Positions 39,684 through 45,158 of a DNA stretch of 64,000 bases are shown one piece after another (position 1 is the stretch's first letter; the number at the start of each line of letters is the position of its first letter). This stretch comes from Rhodovulum marinum (lineage in GTDB: Bacteria > Pseudomonadota > Alphaproteobacteria > Rhodobacterales > Rhodobacteraceae), in contig NZ_SLXP01000002.1 in NCBI RefSeq assembly GCF_004343075.1, forward strand, positions 62,001-126,000, read 5' to 3'. The notes below the pieces were generated by a model, which searched no databases, was not told the origin of the DNA, and saw nothing but the letters and a program-made list of their open reading frames with translations. The translations under genes and the position numbers were made by a program.

Positions 39684-41711
39684 ATGACCAATCCCCTGCT
39701 CGCAGACCGCACCCTGCCCTTCGACCTGCCCGATTTCGCCGCGCTGTCCGACGACGCCTTCGCGCCCGCCTTCGACACCGCGCTGGCCCAGGCCCGGGCC
39801 GAGATCGACGCCATCGCCGCCGACCCCGCGCCCGCCGATTTCGAGAACACGATTCATGCGCTGGAACGCTCGGGCCGGGCGCTCTCCGACGTGCTGTCGG
39901 TGTTCTTCCTGCTGGCCTCGGTCGACGCGACGCCGGAACGCGAGGCGCTGCAACGCGCGTTTTCGCCGAAACTCGCCGAGTTCTCCTCCGACGTTACCCT
40001 GAACGCCGCCCTCTTCGCCCGGATCGAGGCGCTATGGCAGACCCGTGACACCCTCGACCTAACCCCCGAACAGGCCCGCCTGCTGGAGATCAAGCGCCGC
40101 GATTTCGTCCGCGCGGGCGCGGCGCTGGAAGGGGCCGACCGCGACCGGCTGCGCGCGATCAACACGCGCCTTGCGGAACTGGGCACCGCCTTCGCCCAGA
40201 ACCTCCTGGCCGATGAACGCGACTGGGCGATGCCCCTGCCCCAAGACGCCCTCGCCGCCCTGCCCGGCTTCGTGGCCGACGCCGCCCGCGCCGCCGGTGC
40301 CGAACGCGGCGCCGATGGCCCCGTGGTCACGCTGTCCCGCTCGGTCATCGTGCCCTTCCTGCAATTCTCCCCCCACCGTGACTTGCGCCGCCGCGCCTAC
40401 GAGGCGTGGACCGCGCGCGGCGCCCGGGGCGGGGCCACCGACAACCGCGCCATCGTCGCCGAAACGCTGGCGCTGCGCGCCGAACGCGCCGCACTTCTGG
40501 GCTATGACAACTTCGCCGCCTACAAGCTGGAAACCGAGATGGCCAAGACGCCCGCCGCGGTGCGCGAGTTGCTGATGGCCGTCTGGGGCCCTGCCCGCGC
40601 CCGCGCCGAGGCCGATGCCGGGCAGCTCGAACAGATGCTGCAAGACGACGGCCATCCCGCCCCCCTCGAACCCTGGGACTGGCATTTCTACGCCGAGAAA
40701 CGCCGCCGCGCGCTGCACGACCTCGATGAGGCCGAACTGAAACCCTACCTTCAGCTCGACCGGATGATCGAGGCCGCCTTCGACTGCGCGCACCGCCTGT
40801 TCGGCCTCGACTTCGCCCCGCTCGACATCCCCCTTCACCACCCCGACGCCCGCGCCTGGGAAGTCACCCGCGACGGCCGCCACATGGGCGTCTTCATCGG
40901 CGATTACTTCGCCCGCGCGGGCAAGCGGTCGGGCGCCTGGTGCTCGGCGCTGCGCAGCCAGCAAAAGCTTGCCGGCGAGATCCGGCCCCATGTGCTCAAC
41001 GTCTGCAACTTCGCCAAACCCGCCGCCGGGCGCCCCGCGCTTTTGTCCTGGGACGACGCGCGAACCCTGTTCCACGAATTCGGCCACGCGCTGCACCAGA
41101 TGCTCAGCGACGTGACCTACGAAAGCCTCTCGGGCACCTCGGTCGCCCGCGATTTCGTGGAACTGCCCAGCCAGCTTTACGAACACTGGCTCGAGGTGCC
41201 CGAGGTCCTGCAGACCTTCGCCACCCATGCCGACACCGGCGAGGCGATGCCCCAGGCGCTGCTGACCCGGCTGATCGAGGCCGCGACCTACGACATGGGC
41301 TTCCAGACGGTCGAGTTCATCGCCTCTGCGCTGGTCGATCTCGACTTCCACGACGGCCCGCCCCCCGCCGACCCGATGCAGCGCCAGGCCGAGGTGCTGG
41401 AATCGATCGGCATGCCGCGCGCGATCCGCATGCGCCACGCCACGCCCCATTTCGCCCATGTCTTCGCCGGCGGCGGCTATGCCTCGGGCTACTACTCCTA
41501 CATGTGGTCCGAGGTGATGGACGCCGACGCCTTCGCCGCCTTCGAGGAAACGGGCGACCCGTTCGACCCGGAAACCGCCCGGGCGCTGGAACGGCACGTG
41601 CTGTCCACCGGCGGCACCGCCGATCCCGAGGCGCTTTATACCGGCTTCCGCGGCCGCCTGCCCGGCGTCGAGGCGCTGCTGAAAGGGCGCAAGCTGGTCC
41701 CCGCGGCCTGA
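39684..41711 (+). CDS. M3 family zinc metallopeptidase (peptidyl-dipeptidase Dcp / oligopeptidase A type)
   Basis: A 675-residue cytoplasmic peptidase. The zinc motif is H464-E-F-G-H468 in LFHEFGHALHQM, with the third ligand region FVELPSQLYEHW downstream. The wording SGTSVARDFVELPSQ and PHVLNVCNFAKP is closer to Dcp than to PrlC. Members trim oligopeptides of about 5-20 residues, for example products of ATP-dependent proteases or imported peptides. No signal peptide. It starts after GGAGG. Downstream is the secreted lysozyme-like gene, 83 nt away. Confidence 0.93.
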   Translation: MTNPLLADRTLPFDLPDFAALSDDAFAPAFDTALAQARAEIDAIAADPAPADFENTIHALERSGRALSDVLSVFFLLASVDATPEREALQRAFSPKLAEFSSDVTLNAALFARIEALWQTRDTLDLTPEQARLLEIKRRDFVRAGAALEGADRDRLRAINTRLAELGTAFAQNLLADERDWAMPLPQDALAALPGFVADAARAAGAERGADGPVVTLSRSVIVPFLQFSPHRDLRRRAYEAWTARGARGGATDNRAIVAETLALRAERAALLGYDNFAAYKLETEMAKTPAAVRELLMAVWGPARARAEADAGQLEQMLQDDGHPAPLEPWDWHFYAEKRRRALHDLDEAELKPYLQLDRMIEAAFDCAHRLFGLDFAPLDIPLHHPDARAWEVTRDGRHMGVFIGDYFARAGKRSGAWCSALRSQQKLAGEIRPHVLNVCNFAKPAAGRPALLSWDDARTLFHEFGHALHQMLSDVTYESLSGTSVARDFVELPSQLYEHWLEVPEVLQTFATHADTGEAMPQALLTRLIEAATYDMGFQTVEFIASALVDLDFHDGPPPADPMQRQAEVLESIGMPRAIRMRHATPHFAHVFAGGGYASGYYSYMWSEVMDADAFAAFEETGDPFDPETARALERHVLSTGGTADPEALYTGFRGRLPGVEALLKGRKLVPAA

Positions 41712-41794
41712 GCCGCGCGGGCCGGCGGCAACGAAATGTGAACCTCTTGCGGCGAGGCTCGCCGGAACCGACTTGCTCTCAGAACGAGGACAGG

Positions 41795-42655
41795 ATGATT
41801 CCGACCGGCCGCACCCGCGCGCTTGCCCTGGTCACCGCGCTGGCAACCGCCCCGCCGCCGGCGGCGGCGGAACCGGTCTCGCTCTTGGCGGGCAGCTCGC
41901 TTTTCGCCGCGCGCGGCGCGCTGGTGCCCGCCGCCCAGCCCATTCCCCAACCCGCCGCGCCGGCCGACATCGCCCCGGCCGCCTATCCCACGGCCGCCCC
42001 GGCCGCCTATCCCGCGGCCGCCCCGGCCGACCCCGCCCCCACGGCACACGGCGCCAGCCTGTTCGCCGGGCGCGCGGGCACCGGCCTGTTCGCCCCACGC
42101 GCACCCCGCCCCCCCGCGCCCGAGGCCGCGATGCGCACCAGCCTGCGCGCCGCACTGCACGCCCCGGGCCCCACGGCCGACGCCGCCGCGCGCATCCGCC
42201 ACCTGATCGCGCGGGCCGAGGCCGGGCGCGACGGCTATGACGCGGTCCAGCACGGCGCACGGGTGCGCCCGGCCAAACCGCCGACCCGGATGACCATCGC
42301 CGAAATCTATGCCTGGATCGCCGCCACGCCGGGCCAGCCGCACGCCATCGGCCGCTACCAGTTCATCCCCTCGACGCTGCGCCAGCTGGTGCGCGAGCTG
42401 GGGATCGACCTGAACACCGTTTTCTCGCCCGGGATCCAGGACCGTCTCGCCGACCTGCTGCTCGAGGATGCCGGGTTCGCCGAGTTCACCGCCGGGCGGA
42501 TCACCCGCACCCGCTTCATGAACAACCTCGCCCAGATCTGGGCCGGGCTGCCCACCTCCAGCGGCAAGTCGCATTACCACGGCTTCGCCGGAAACCGCGC
42601 CACCATGACCTGGGCCCGCTTCGACGCCGAGATGGCGCAGATCTTCCCCGGCTAG
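41795..42655 (+). CDS. Secreted lysozyme-like protein with low-complexity linker
   Basis: A 286-residue exported protein. Signal peptide at residues 1-25 (ALALVTALATAPPPAAA). An Ala/Pro-rich linker (about 26-125) has repeats AAYPTAAP / AAYPAAAP and three copies of a SLFA-R-like motif (SSLFAARG, ASLFAGRAG, GLFAPRAP). The C-terminal domain (about 130-286) looks like a lysozyme fold: IRHLIARAEAGRDGYDAV, MTIAEIYAWI and the typical GRYQFIPSTL, with a Glu in ARAEAG as candidate catalytic acid. It may cleave peptidoglycan. It is followed by a perfect hairpin. Confidence 0.7.
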   Translation: MIPTGRTRALALVTALATAPPPAAAEPVSLLAGSSLFAARGALVPAAQPIPQPAAPADIAPAAYPTAAPAAYPAAAPADPAPTAHGASLFAGRAGTGLFAPRAPRPPAPEAAMRTSLRAALHAPGPTADAAARIRHLIARAEAGRDGYDAVQHGARVRPAKPPTRMTIAEIYAWIAATPGQPHAIGRYQFIPSTLRQLVRELGIDLNTVFSPGIQDRLADLLLEDAGFAEFTAGRITRTRFMNNLAQIWAGLPTSSGKSHYHGFAGNRATMTWARFDAEMAQIFPG

Positions 42656-42750: not shown

Positions 42751-42830
42751 CTTCTTCTTGGTACAAGTACACTGGGGGGTCTGGGGGGCAAAGCCCCCCA
42801 GCCGGTCGCCTTGGCGCAGCCAAGGCGAAA
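42751..42830 (+). repeat. Extragenic hairpin element, copy 2
   Basis: TTCTTGGTACAAGTACACTG is the head, followed by two perfect hairpins: CTGGGGGGC-AAA-GCCCCCCAG (42781-42801) and TCGCCTTGGC-GCA-GCCAAGGCGA (42806-42828), then GAAACCCGAA. It is collinear with the copy at 45071, with compensating base changes in the stems. It lies between convergent genes and could terminate transcription. Confidence 0.65.
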
Positions 42831-42868
42831 CCCGAAGGGCGATGGGCGCGCGATTGCCCGCCATGCGC

Positions 42869-44083
42869 CTAGCCGCCCCTGACGATGCCCGCGTCGAACA
42901 GCCGGGCGATCTCGCCCTCCGGGAGCCCGGCCACGTCGGCCAGGATTTCCTCGGTATGTTGGCCCAGCGCTGGGGCGGGCGCGGGCGCCTCTCGCGGCGC
43001 GGCCGAAAAGCCGAAGGGCGAGCCCGGCACCGGGTAGCGGCCGATCCCCGGCTGGTCCAGATCCGTGAACAACGCCGCCTCGCCCGGCGCGAAATCGGGA
43101 TCCTCGCGCAGCGCGCGGGCAAAGCTGCGGAAGGTCGACCAGGTGACGCCCGCCGCCTCGAAGGCGTCGGCGAACTCGGCCACCCGGCGCGCGGCGAACC
43201 ACGGCGCCAGCACCGCGCTGATCCGCGCCCGGTGCAGCCAGCGCTGGCCTTCCTCGGCCAGGCTCACGCCGAGTTCCGCCTCCAGCGCGGCCATCGCCTC
43301 GGCCGTGCCCGTGACCTTGACGAGATTGTGCCACTGCCGCTCGGTCAGGCCGATCACCATCACCCGCTCGCCGTCGGCGCAAAGGAAATCCTGCCCGTAG
43401 GCGCCGTAAAGGGCGTTGCCGCCCTTGGGCCGGTCGACCCCGTTCACCGCGACCTCGCCGATGATCCCGAGATTGCCCAGCATCGCCGCGGCCACGTCCT
43501 TCAGCGCGATCTCGACCAGCTGGCCCCGACTGGTGCGCAGCCGGTGGCGCTCGGCCGCCAACAGGCCCGTCACCGCCATGTTCCCCGCGATGCAGTCCCA
43601 GGCGGGCAGGACATGGGCCACCGGATCGGTGCTGCCCTCGGGGCCGGTGGCGTCGGGAAAGCCCACCGAGGGGTTCACCGTGTAATCCACCGCCGGCCGC
43701 CCGTGCCGGTCGCCCAACAGCGAGACCATCACCAGGTCCGCCCGCCGCGCCGACAGCGTCGGGTAGTCGAGGAACCCGCGCACCGCGAGGTTGGTCAGGA
43801 ACAGCCCCGCGTCGTCGCCCGGCGCGCAGATGATCTCGGTGATGATCTCGCGGCCCCTCGGGTGCTTCATGTCGATGGCGATCGAGCGTTTGCCCTTGTT
43901 CAGCCCCGCCCAGAACAGGCTGCGTCCGTCCTTCGTCACCGGCCAGCGCGTGGCGTCCAGCCCGCCCTCCAGCCGGTCGAACCGGATCACGTCCGCGCCC
44001 ATCTGCGCCAGCGTCATCCCCGCCAGCGGGATCGCCACGAAGGCCGAGCCCTCGACCACCCGCATGCCCTTCAGGATGCCCAT
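42869..44083 (-). CDS. mct: CaiB/BaiF-type CoA transferase, probable mesaconyl-CoA C1-C4 CoA transferase
   Basis: A 404-residue family III CoA transferase. The sequence MGILKGMRVVEGSAF, LAGMTLAQMGADVIRFD, FWAGLNKGKRSIAID, DYTVNPSVGFP, HVLPAWD and the C-terminal GQHTEEILADVAGL closely follows my memory of Mct of Chloroflexus, which moves CoA within mesaconate from C1 to C4 (3-hydroxypropionate bi-cycle). Asp163 in LPAWD sits where the family's catalytic Asp is expected. The call is strengthened by the adjacent mesaconyl-C4-CoA hydratase-like gene, whose TGA overlaps this ATG by one base. An unrelated CaiB/BaiF substrate is the alternative. Confidence 0.75.
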   Translation of the reverse strand: MGILKGMRVVEGSAFVAIPLAGMTLAQMGADVIRFDRLEGGLDATRWPVTKDGRSLFWAGLNKGKRSIAIDMKHPRGREIITEIICAPGDDAGLFLTNLAVRGFLDYPTLSARRADLVMVSLLGDRHGRPAVDYTVNPSVGFPDATGPEGSTDPVAHVLPAWDCIAGNMAVTGLLAAERHRLRTSRGQLVEIALKDVAAAMLGNLGIIGEVAVNGVDRPKGGNALYGAYGQDFLCADGERVMVIGLTERQWHNLVKVTGTAEAMAALEAELGVSLAEEGQRWLHRARISAVLAPWFAARRVAEFADAFEAAGVTWSTFRSFARALREDPDFAPGEAALFTDLDQPGIGRYPVPGSPFGFSAAPREAPAPAPALGQHTEEILADVAGLPEGEIARLFDAGIVRGG

Positions 44084-44943
44084 CACGCCAGCTCCAGCCG
44101 GGCCTGCAGGCATTGATGCCCTGATCCCGCCGCCCCGGTGCACAGCTCCAGCGCGCCGTCCTCGCCCCGCGTGCCCGTCAGCGTCATGTCCTCGTCGGCG
44201 AACATCGGGTGCACGCCCCGGAACCGGAAGGCGCGGGGCGTGCCGCCCGCGTGGCGCAGCGCGGCCTCCATCACCAGCGTGGCCTGCATCGGCCCATGCA
44301 CCACCAGCGCGGGGTATTTCTCGATCTCGCGCGCATAGGGCAGGTCGTAATGGATGCGATGCGCGTTGTAGGTCGCCGCCGAATAGCGGAACAGCCGCGC
44401 CTCGTTCACCGGCACCGTCTCGGTGAAATCGGCGCCCCCGGGCACGGGGATCTTCTTCGGCGGGGTAAACCGCTCGGGGATGTCGAGATAGACGATGTCC
44501 TGTTCCTCGTCGATCCAACCGCCATGCGCGCCCTCGATGCGATGGCCCACGCGGACAAAGACCATCGGCCCCGTCGCCCCGCGCTTTTCGTCCACTGCCA
44601 GGATTTCCGAGCGTTTGCGCAGCGCCTCGCCGATGGCAAATCCCCCCTCGAACCGCAGCCGCCCGCCGGCCCACATCCGCCGCGAATAGGGCAAGGGCGG
44701 CAGAAAGCCGCCCAGCCGCGGGTGCCCATCCGTTCCCAACTCGCCCAGCGGCACGAATTCGGGAAACGCCGCCCAGTGCCACAGCGTGGGCATCGGCGCC
44801 CCGGGCGCAAGCGCCGGCACCGGCGCGGCCGGATGGCCCAGCGCGCCCGCCAACATGCCGGCCAGGTTCGGCGTCAGGCACCCCTCGCGGGTCTCGACCC
44901 GCCCGATCCAGTCCCGCCCGTCGACATTCGCAATGGCTTCCAT
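44083..44943 (-). CDS. meh: MaoC/HTD2-type hydratase, probable mesaconyl-C4-CoA hydratase
   Basis: A 286-residue protein made of two hot-dog halves: an N-terminal FAS1-like half (WIGRVETREG, GELGTDGHPRLGGF, RMWAGGRLRFEG) and a C-terminal half with the hydratase motif YNAHRIHYDLPYA, then VHGPMQATLVMEA. This is the HTD2 layout shared with mesaconyl-C4-CoA hydratase (Meh), which hydrates mesaconyl-C4-CoA to citramalyl-CoA. With mct next door the pair would convert mesaconyl-C1-CoA to citramalyl-CoA, cleavable to acetyl-CoA plus pyruvate. A citramalyl-CoA lyase is not in the window. Itaconate-type CoA hydration is another possibility. Confidence 0.75.
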   Translation of the reverse strand: MEAIANVDGRDWIGRVETREGCLTPNLAGMLAGALGHPAAPVPALAPGAPMPTLWHWAAFPEFVPLGELGTDGHPRLGGFLPPLPYSRRMWAGGRLRFEGGFAIGEALRKRSEILAVDEKRGATGPMVFVRVGHRIEGAHGGWIDEEQDIVYLDIPERFTPPKKIPVPGGADFTETVPVNEARLFRYSAATYNAHRIHYDLPYAREIEKYPALVVHGPMQATLVMEAALRHAGGTPRAFRFRGVHPMFADEDMTLTGTRGEDGALELCTGAAGSGHQCLQARLELA

Positions 44944-44991
44944 GCCCCCTCCCTTGTTCGGCGCCGCGGCCGCCCGGCCCGCAGCCTTGGC

Positions 44992-45070: not shown

Positions 45071-45158
45071 TGCTTTTTCTTGGCCGAAATACTCCGGGGG
45101 GTCGCGGGGGGCAGCGCCCCCCGCGCGGGTCGCCCCGGCGTCAGCCGGGGCGAAACCC
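45071..45158 (+). repeat. Extragenic hairpin element, copy 3
   Basis: Head TTTTTCTTGGCCGAAATACT, then two perfect hairpins, CGCGGGGGGC-AGC-GCCCCCCGCG (45103-45125) and CGCCCCGGC-GTCA-GCCGGGGCG (45131-45152), ending AAACCCGAAA. Same order and spacing as copy 2. It sits just downstream of betA (minus strand) and upstream of the meh promoter, so it may insulate the two operons. Confidence 0.65.

Follow-up and report, generated by a model that had tools for sequence, protein, structure and literature searches.

In the 64,000-nucleotide stretch of Rhodovulum marinum DNA analysed here (the window; positions 62001-126000 of contig C2, in a genome of 3.95 Mb with an estimated completeness of 99.99%), two overlapping genes, meh and mct, were identified as encoding a hydratase and a family III coenzyme A (CoA) transferase that resemble the Meh and Mct enzymes of Chloroflexus. 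Taken together, the homology of both proteins, the residues and clade of the transferase, the linkage of the genes in relatives and their co-occurrence with malate:CoA ligase are best explained if the pair belongs to that half of the 3-hydroxypropionate bi-cycle in which glyoxylate is assimilated, here joined to the ethylmalonyl-CoA pathway and working with an ATP-dependent malate:CoA ligase; the probability of this reading was put at about two in three. An earlier note, made from the sequence of the window, had already reported two overlapping genes at 42869-44943, and these were present on the minus strand with both open reading frames (ORFs) intact.

Identity of the transferase and the hydratase

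The closest solved relatives of the transferase were the Mct enzymes of Roseiflexus (PDB 7xkg, E = 8e-154) and Chloroflexus (8apq, E = 2e-152). These matched with 517 and 513 bits, while the next solved family III protein produced only 102 bits (3e-28; query one residue longer). Among NCBIfam models, the transferase scored 540.6 bits with TIGR04253 (2-methylfumaryl-CoA isomerase) and 120.5 bits with the next model; since the former value lies beneath the curated cut-off of 725, the protein is called Mct-like and its membership is not claimed as proven.

Residues were compared across 98 Mct rows, comprising 91 distinct sequences of which one was the window's own copy, with 13 other CaiB-type proteins as a contrast. 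Arg47, Asn100, Asp135, Tyr136 and Asp165 were identical across all 98 rows. Three of these were common to both sets, since Asp165 occurred in 13, Asn100 in 12 and Asp135 in 11 of the 13 contrasting proteins, and so they do not discriminate Mct; however, Arg47 was found in only four and Tyr136 in only three of the 13. Position 43 was Leu in 94 Mct rows and Met in the other four, as against Asp (12) or Gly (1) in the contrast set. The roles of such residues in Mct have been described, and Leu or Ile at position 43 is given as common to intramolecular transferases (PMC9813914, PMC9196870).

Phylogenetic analysis of 106 rows (93 Mct rows, including the two PDB enzymes, and 13 other CaiB/BaiF proteins), using a quick maximum-likelihood search without bootstrap, separated the Mct rows, the solved enzymes among them, from the other proteins at a single branch, with support of 100 in the Shimodaira-Hasegawa-like approximate likelihood ratio test (SH-aLRT) and long outgroup branches. 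Such a phylogeny had been set beforehand as a test that could overturn the Mct assignment, and the transferase did not fall among the other clades, as sampled by the 13 outgroup rows. The solved Mcts as its closest solved relatives, its place in their clade and the retention of the mesaconyl-side residues support the Mct-type assignment first proposed for the transferase. Elsewhere in the tree, two alphaproteobacterial Mct-like genes (L087 and L095, from genomes G084 and G071) grouped with the Chloroflexi enzymes (SH-aLRT 90).

For the hydratase, the closest solved relative was 8khg, named itaconyl-CoA hydratase (8e-51), followed by 8huc (1e-49); no further solved relatives were found up to E = 10. 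PF13452 matched at 1.3e-08, and no NCBIfam model did so at 0.001. The window's hydratase carries the motif N-x-H-x-I-H, as do 75 of the 76 related loci with a homologue; in the remaining one (L052) the match did not extend far enough to reach it. Itaconyl-CoA hydratases of this sort act on itaconyl-CoA and mesaconyl-C4-CoA alike (PMC12290011). The match to 8khg and the motif bear out the earlier description of the hydratase as Meh-type by family.

Gene context and co-occurrence in relatives

Gene context was examined for the 80 best of at least 519 confirmed loci in relatives. The nearest among named genomes were from Rhodovulum steppense, R. strictum and R. tesquicola, with a transferase identity of 85%. 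A meh homologue was found near mct in 76 of the 80 loci and directly before it, on the same strand, in 74; in two gammaproteobacteria (L065, L071) a lyase-cluster gene stood between meh and mct. Other partners were counted by tblastn with named queries, and because many of the contigs are short these counts are lower bounds.

A single operon recurred in 13 of the 80 loci (L005, L006, L007, L010, L014, L015, L017, L018, L020, L022, L024, L025 and L053), in which a divergent regulator gene, scfR, was followed by an aminotransferase gene, mclA (malyl-CoA lyase), mtkA and mtkB (malate:CoA ligase), meh and mct. Of these complete operons, L017 and L005 come from the culturable relatives Mameliella alba and Roseibaca ekhonensis. 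Two further loci (L031, L049) showed the same order without a recognised aminotransferase, and variants were seen in which only the ligase genes preceded meh, near where the contig stops (L011, L021), in which the ligase genes lay 3' of mct on the opposite strand (L016), or in which the regulator adjoined meh-mct without the ligase (L004, L009). These recurrent partners, malate:CoA ligase, malyl-CoA lyase and the ScfR-type regulator, are a new context that was absent from the earlier note. In three other loci (L038, L048, L050) a RipC-like lyase came directly after mct; it was most like 8khl/9nzb (8khl, 1e-55) and scored 165 bits on the RipC model, for which the cut-off is 375. A malic-enzyme gene preceded meh in six loci, and in three of these (L012, L019, L027) a propionyl-CoA-synthetase-like gene also stood 3' of mct, both names being given by sequence reading; this last arrangement hints at propionate use.

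In the R. marinum genome itself, the regulator, aminotransferase, lyase and malate:CoA ligase genes stood together on contig C5, without meh-mct. The beta subunit of the ligase (mtkA) scored 682.5 bits, over the equivalog cut-off of 604, and mtkB is probably the second subunit, given its position. The aminotransferase scored 588 bits on the BhcA model (cut-off 650) and the lyase was nearest to 5ugr (2e-117). The regulator (L117:9457-10857) is of the ScfR family (PF09856, 193 bits), with 352.7 bits on the RamB model against a cut-off of 700. A regulator of this family adjoins the C5 module as well as, directly, meh-mct in L004 and L009, and it may represent an undescribed ScfR subgroup.

Co-occurrence was evaluated in 295 genomes of the family Rhodobacteraceae, drawn evenly with one per genus. 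At a threshold of 1e-90 or better, Mct was found in 48 of these, the present genome included, and in none of 14 control genomes. The ligase was scored at E of at most 1e-150, and copies with 72% identity or more to the R. marinum ligase were taken as its own type, a bar that was chosen after the list had been viewed; this type was present in 34 genomes and a lower type (<72%) in 36. Own-type ligase occurred in 23 of the 48 Mct genomes, R. marinum among them, and in 11 of the 247 others (Fisher's exact test, p = 3e-13, a value which, like the one below, disregards shared ancestry). When the bar was raised to 75% identity the comparison was 23 Mct genomes to 8 others. The lower type, which served as an internal control, showed no such relationship (5/48 versus 31/247, p = 0.8). 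Ligase and mct lay within 6 kb in 11 of the 23 genomes, and when these were dropped the association persisted (12/37 versus 11/247, p = 2e-06), although draft contigs can hide linkage. By identity, the malate:CoA-ligase-like beta subunits of Rhodobacteraceae fall into two classes, and only the class nearer the R. marinum gene goes with Mct.

A separate set of 101 genomes (100 relatives and R. marinum) showed a clear gap in TIGR04253 scores, with full-length matches of 448 bits or more and then values of 128 or less. The high-score group comprised 17 genomes, one of them by way of two fragments at contig ends (376 and 275 bits). Within the genus, Mct was present in 6 of 16 genomes, and the same six carried the ligase; on a two-gene tree of the genus the trait needed three changes (3-4 in bootstraps). 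A second Mct-like copy, of 345 to 507 bits, was observed in four genomes (Table 1).

Genes of the ethylmalonyl-CoA pathway were found on contig C9, where ccr scored 619 bits (cut-off 378.55) and was adjoined by a gene for a B12-dependent mutase; the latter was named only as methylmalonyl-CoA-mutase-like, and by its position is probably ecm (ethylmalonyl-CoA mutase). Also on C9, mesaconyl-CoA hydratase (mch) matched PF19315 with 50.2 bits, over the threshold of 26.5, yet fell below the NCBIfam equivalogs. A lyase on contig C1 was nearest to the malyl-CoA lyase of R. sphaeroides (4l9y, 8e-186), and a third lyase-like protein (L082) is presumably the malyl-CoA thioesterase Mcl2. The earlier expectation that the genome would hold this pathway was supported by ccr, mch, the putative ecm and genes of malyl-CoA-lyase type; no dedicated citramalyl-CoA lyase was recognised among the three PF03328 proteins scanned, out of four in the genome. 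The gene ccr was considered as a discriminating partner of Mct and rejected; it is present in most genomes of the family and therefore says little on Mct. No isocitrate lyase exceeded its cut-off in the R. marinum genome (best 55.7 bits), and among the 101 genomes it did so in six, none of them within the family; weaker matches of 83-113 bits (G001, G004, G033, G041) may represent another type.

Proposed pathway and its alternatives

The catalytic activities, the direction of flow and the identity of the citramalyl-CoA lyase are predictions, and would combine as follows. The ethylmalonyl-CoA pathway would supply mesaconyl-C1-CoA, or else this would be formed via beta-methylmalyl-CoA out of propionyl-CoA and glyoxylate. 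Mct would convert it to mesaconyl-C4-CoA by intramolecular CoA transfer through the catalytic aspartate, Meh would add water to give (S)-citramalyl-CoA, and an enzyme of malyl-CoA-lyase type would cleave this to acetyl-CoA and pyruvate. The notion of a Rhodobacter malyl-CoA lyase unable to act on citramalyl-CoA was considered, and is wrong according to PMC3832036. Malate:CoA ligase would replace the succinyl-CoA:malate CoA transferase of Chloroflexus, making malyl-CoA from malate with ATP; the lyase would then release glyoxylate, which would thus be supplied as well. RamB, a regulator of the ScfR family, binds esters of the ethylmalonyl-CoA pathway, with beta-methylmalyl-CoA suggested as its preferred ligand (PMC10370305), and by analogy an ScfR-type regulator beside the module would fit the proposed pathway.

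It is possible, if doubtful, that the ethylmalonyl-CoA pathway, Mct, Meh and a citramalyl-CoA lyase together form a cycle with acetyl-CoA serving as its primer as well as its substrate, the net result being aerobic carboxylation of acetyl-CoA to pyruvate. Two acetyl-CoA and one CO2 would be carried to mesaconyl-CoA, from which one acetyl-CoA would be returned and pyruvate released; the reductant would be NADPH, with neither ferredoxin nor an oxygen-sensitive pyruvate synthase being involved. With malate:CoA ligase and lyase added, malate and propionyl-CoA would yield pyruvate and two acetyl-CoA.

Various observations weigh against the proposed pathway, beyond the cautions already attached to the choice of identity bar, the Fisher values and the draft contigs. 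The shortfall on TIGR04253 is general, in that the cut-off was reached in none of the 295 family genomes, including all 48 with Mct. Compared with the Chloroflexus-type enzyme, there are substitutions at the CoA end: Phe101 is Leu in the window and in 96 of the 98 rows, Glu133 has become Ala in the window's transferase and in 59 rows, Arg75 is Lys in the window and Arg314 is Gly in 94 rows, Arg104 being retained in the window's transferase. With these residues altered, a sealed and purely intramolecular mode may not hold. Neither ligase nor lyase adjoins meh-mct in the window, mtkB is by its NCBIfam name the alpha subunit of a succinate:CoA ligase, and most of the 80 loci, outside the groups named above, lacked any searched partner. 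As candidates for a dedicated citramalyl-CoA lyase, three of the four PF03328 proteins of the R. marinum genome scored 154-190 bits on RipC, for which 375 are required (the fourth, L081, was not scanned). Own-type ligase was missing from 25 of the 48 Mct genomes and present in 11 without Mct; moreover, Mct may have been gained only once within the genus, and co-occurrence there is weak as independent evidence. Finally, L087 and L095 had no meh within 1.5 kb on either side, and no ccr over cut-off was found in their genomes, G084 (86% complete) and G071 (77% complete).

Three other explanations were considered. The pair might break down free C5 dicarboxylates (itaconate, mesaconate, methylsuccinate), with the transferase activating them from a CoA donor, the hydratase producing citramalyl-CoA and a lyase releasing acetyl-CoA and pyruvate. 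This would accord with the name of the hydratase's closest solved relative and the use of both substrates by such enzymes (PMC12290011), with the RipC-like lyase after mct in three of the 80 loci, and with the departure of the CoA-end residues from those of the Chloroflexus Mct. However, the transferase lies in the Mct clade and retains both Leu43 and Arg47, which have been linked to intramolecular transfer (PMC9813914), and the commonest partners were malate:CoA ligase and malyl-CoA lyase (of the itaconate-cluster genes, only hydratase and lyase were searched for), so that such a role appears improbable. It is likewise unlikely that the ligase/lyase module and meh-mct have separate functions and are simply joined in an operon in certain genera, the former being a serine-cycle or glyoxylate/glycine module and the latter a drain for mesaconyl-CoA. 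Co-occurrence persisted among genomes in which no linkage within 6 kb was observed, and Mct showed no association with the second ligase type, both of which argue against such independence, even though the many genomes with only one of the two components suit it, as do the resemblance of the aminotransferase beside mclA-mtkAB to BhcA, an L-aspartate:glyoxylate aminotransferase, and the place of ligase and lyase among the serine-cycle enzymes of Methylobacterium (PMC2948502).

By far the least probable alternative is a different family III activity on another branched dicarboxylyl-CoA, the transferase being Mct-like by descent only. On the mesaconyl side Arg47, Tyr136 and Asp165 do not vary, and the constant neighbour of the transferase gene is one of Meh type, which argues against such an activity, although the score beneath the TIGR04253 cut-off, the altered CoA-end residues of almost every proteobacterial member and the precedent of ThnP, an intramolecular family III transferase with another substrate (PMC11659651), would be explained by it.

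The locus and its relation to known systems

The features of the locus are listed in Table 1. The one-base overlap of meh and mct is consistent, as read from the sequence, with translational coupling of the two genes. Upstream of meh and on the same strand are betA, betB and betI, with choline ABC transporter genes beyond them in divergent orientation. On the 3' side of mct there is a convergent gene of oligopeptidase A/Dcp type at 39684-41711; for a further convergent ORF at 40940-42655, the frame that was scanned gave no match to Pfam.

Table 1. Positions of features at the meh-mct locus (window coordinates) and of second Mct-like copies in other genomes (genome:contig)
Feature	Position	Strand	Basis
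mct: family III CoA transferase, Mct-like, 404 aa, ATG at 44083	42869..44083	-	PDB matches, TIGR04253, residues, tree
meh: mesaconyl-C4-CoA hydratase / itaconyl-CoA hydratase-like, 286 aa	44083..44943	-	PDB 8khg, PF13452, N-x-H-x-I-H motif
meh stop / mct start overlap, TGATG	44081..44085	-	sequence reading
GGGAGG, putative ribosome-binding-like site 5' of meh	44948..44953	-	sequence reading
Hairpin element in the betA-meh gap	45128..45158	.	copy of genome-dispersed repeat
Hairpin element, second copy, downstream of mct	42804..42833	.	same dispersed repeat
Second Mct-like copy	G087:C1:292169-293335
Second Mct-like copy	G195:C4:26546-27679
Second Mct-like copy	G305:C1:659504-660610
Second Mct-like copy	G236:C59:12548-13750

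The position of meh after betIBA, with a hairpin between, had been singled out as worthy of attention. The arrangement is real, the end of betA being 225 bp from meh, but no special meaning could be attached to it. Genes for bet proteins (at identities of at least 45% for betA, 55% for betB and 40% for betI) stood beside meh-mct in none of the 80 loci, nor in two further congeneric stretches (L123, L124); weaker relatives of betB, aldehyde dehydrogenases with 42% and 35% identity, were near mct in L007 and L026. The hairpin, with the pattern GGTCGCC..GGCG..GCC..GGCGAAACCC, was rejected as a special element of meh-mct, being a dispersed repeat whose exact pattern recurs 35 times across the genome, on either strand, where the reversed control gave none. 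Its stem shows compensating changes (TT/AA, CC/GG, CT/AG), it flanks meh-mct on both sides, and no Rfam match over the gathering score was obtained in the window. The proximity of betIBA and the presence of the hairpin both seem to be incidental.

Compared with the Mct and Meh of Chloroflexus and Roseiflexus, the pair shares the Mct clade, Asp165, Arg47, Tyr136 and Leu43, and a Meh-type hydratase gene directly upstream. It differs in the transferase score beneath the curated cut-off, in the replacement of Phe101, Glu133 and Arg314, in a host with genes of the ethylmalonyl-CoA pathway, and in the linked source of malyl-CoA, which in relatives is malate:CoA ligase rather than succinyl-CoA:malate CoA transferase (for which no search was made here). 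A partial bi-cycle has been described in Kentron, Thiosymbion, Competibacter, Riegeria and Accumulibacter (PMC6593406). There too, Mct and Meh are kept without the full autotrophic cycle, and a locus from the related Contendobacter (L065) is included in the transferase tree; however, as far as that paper was available, it does not name Rhodobacteraceae, and 'Rhodobacter' is absent from its main text. Further differences are that in the gammaproteobacterial loci L065 and L071 a lyase gene separates meh from mct, and that the 17 kb covered contain no malate:CoA ligase with at least 60% identity.

The ethylmalonyl-CoA pathway of Rhodobacter and Methylobacterium is matched in the R. marinum genome by ccr, mch and the mutase beside ccr, but its known end is propionyl-CoA and glyoxylate, to which Mct and Meh would add a branch to acetyl-CoA and pyruvate. 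Itaconate and methylsuccinate degradation (PMC12290011) shares the hydratase family and, in three loci, the RipC-like lyase, and differs in that the transferase here is of the Mct clade. The malate:CoA ligase and malyl-CoA lyase of the Methylobacterium serine cycle (PMC2948502) find their likeness in the R. marinum mtkA, over its equivalog cut-off; the difference is that in 13 of the 80 loci ligase and lyase share an operon with meh-mct beside an ScfR-type regulator.

Mct and Meh are known outside Chloroflexi (PMC6593406, PMC9802188), and enzymes of the 3-hydroxypropionate bi-cycle, this isomerase among those named, have already been reported in Alphaproteobacteria (PMC9802188), so the meh-mct pair as such is not new. 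No paper on an operon of malate:CoA ligase, lyase, Meh and Mct was found among the literature listings, some of them partial and with most subscription literature outside their coverage. The coupling of meh-mct to malate:CoA ligase and an ScfR-type regulator is the part that appears to be new.

These results also bear on the practice of using Mct to recognise the autotrophic 3-hydroxypropionate bi-cycle. In one survey, a first filter of E below 1e-99 with TIGR04253 was followed by a check of pathway completeness (PMC9802188). The best hit in each of the 48 Mct genomes of the family passes 1e-99, the weakest being 1.9e-112 (E-values per single genome), and as these genomes are not known to run the bi-cycle, the Mct marker alone could mislead. 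Were the cycle described above to operate, about a sixth of the sampled Rhodobacteraceae genera would possess an aerobic route from acetyl-CoA to pyruvate, of which no earlier description was met. If the proposed pathway is right, a common bacterial group could reach pyruvate from acetyl-CoA, propionyl-CoA and glyoxylate by way of an oxygen-tolerant link.

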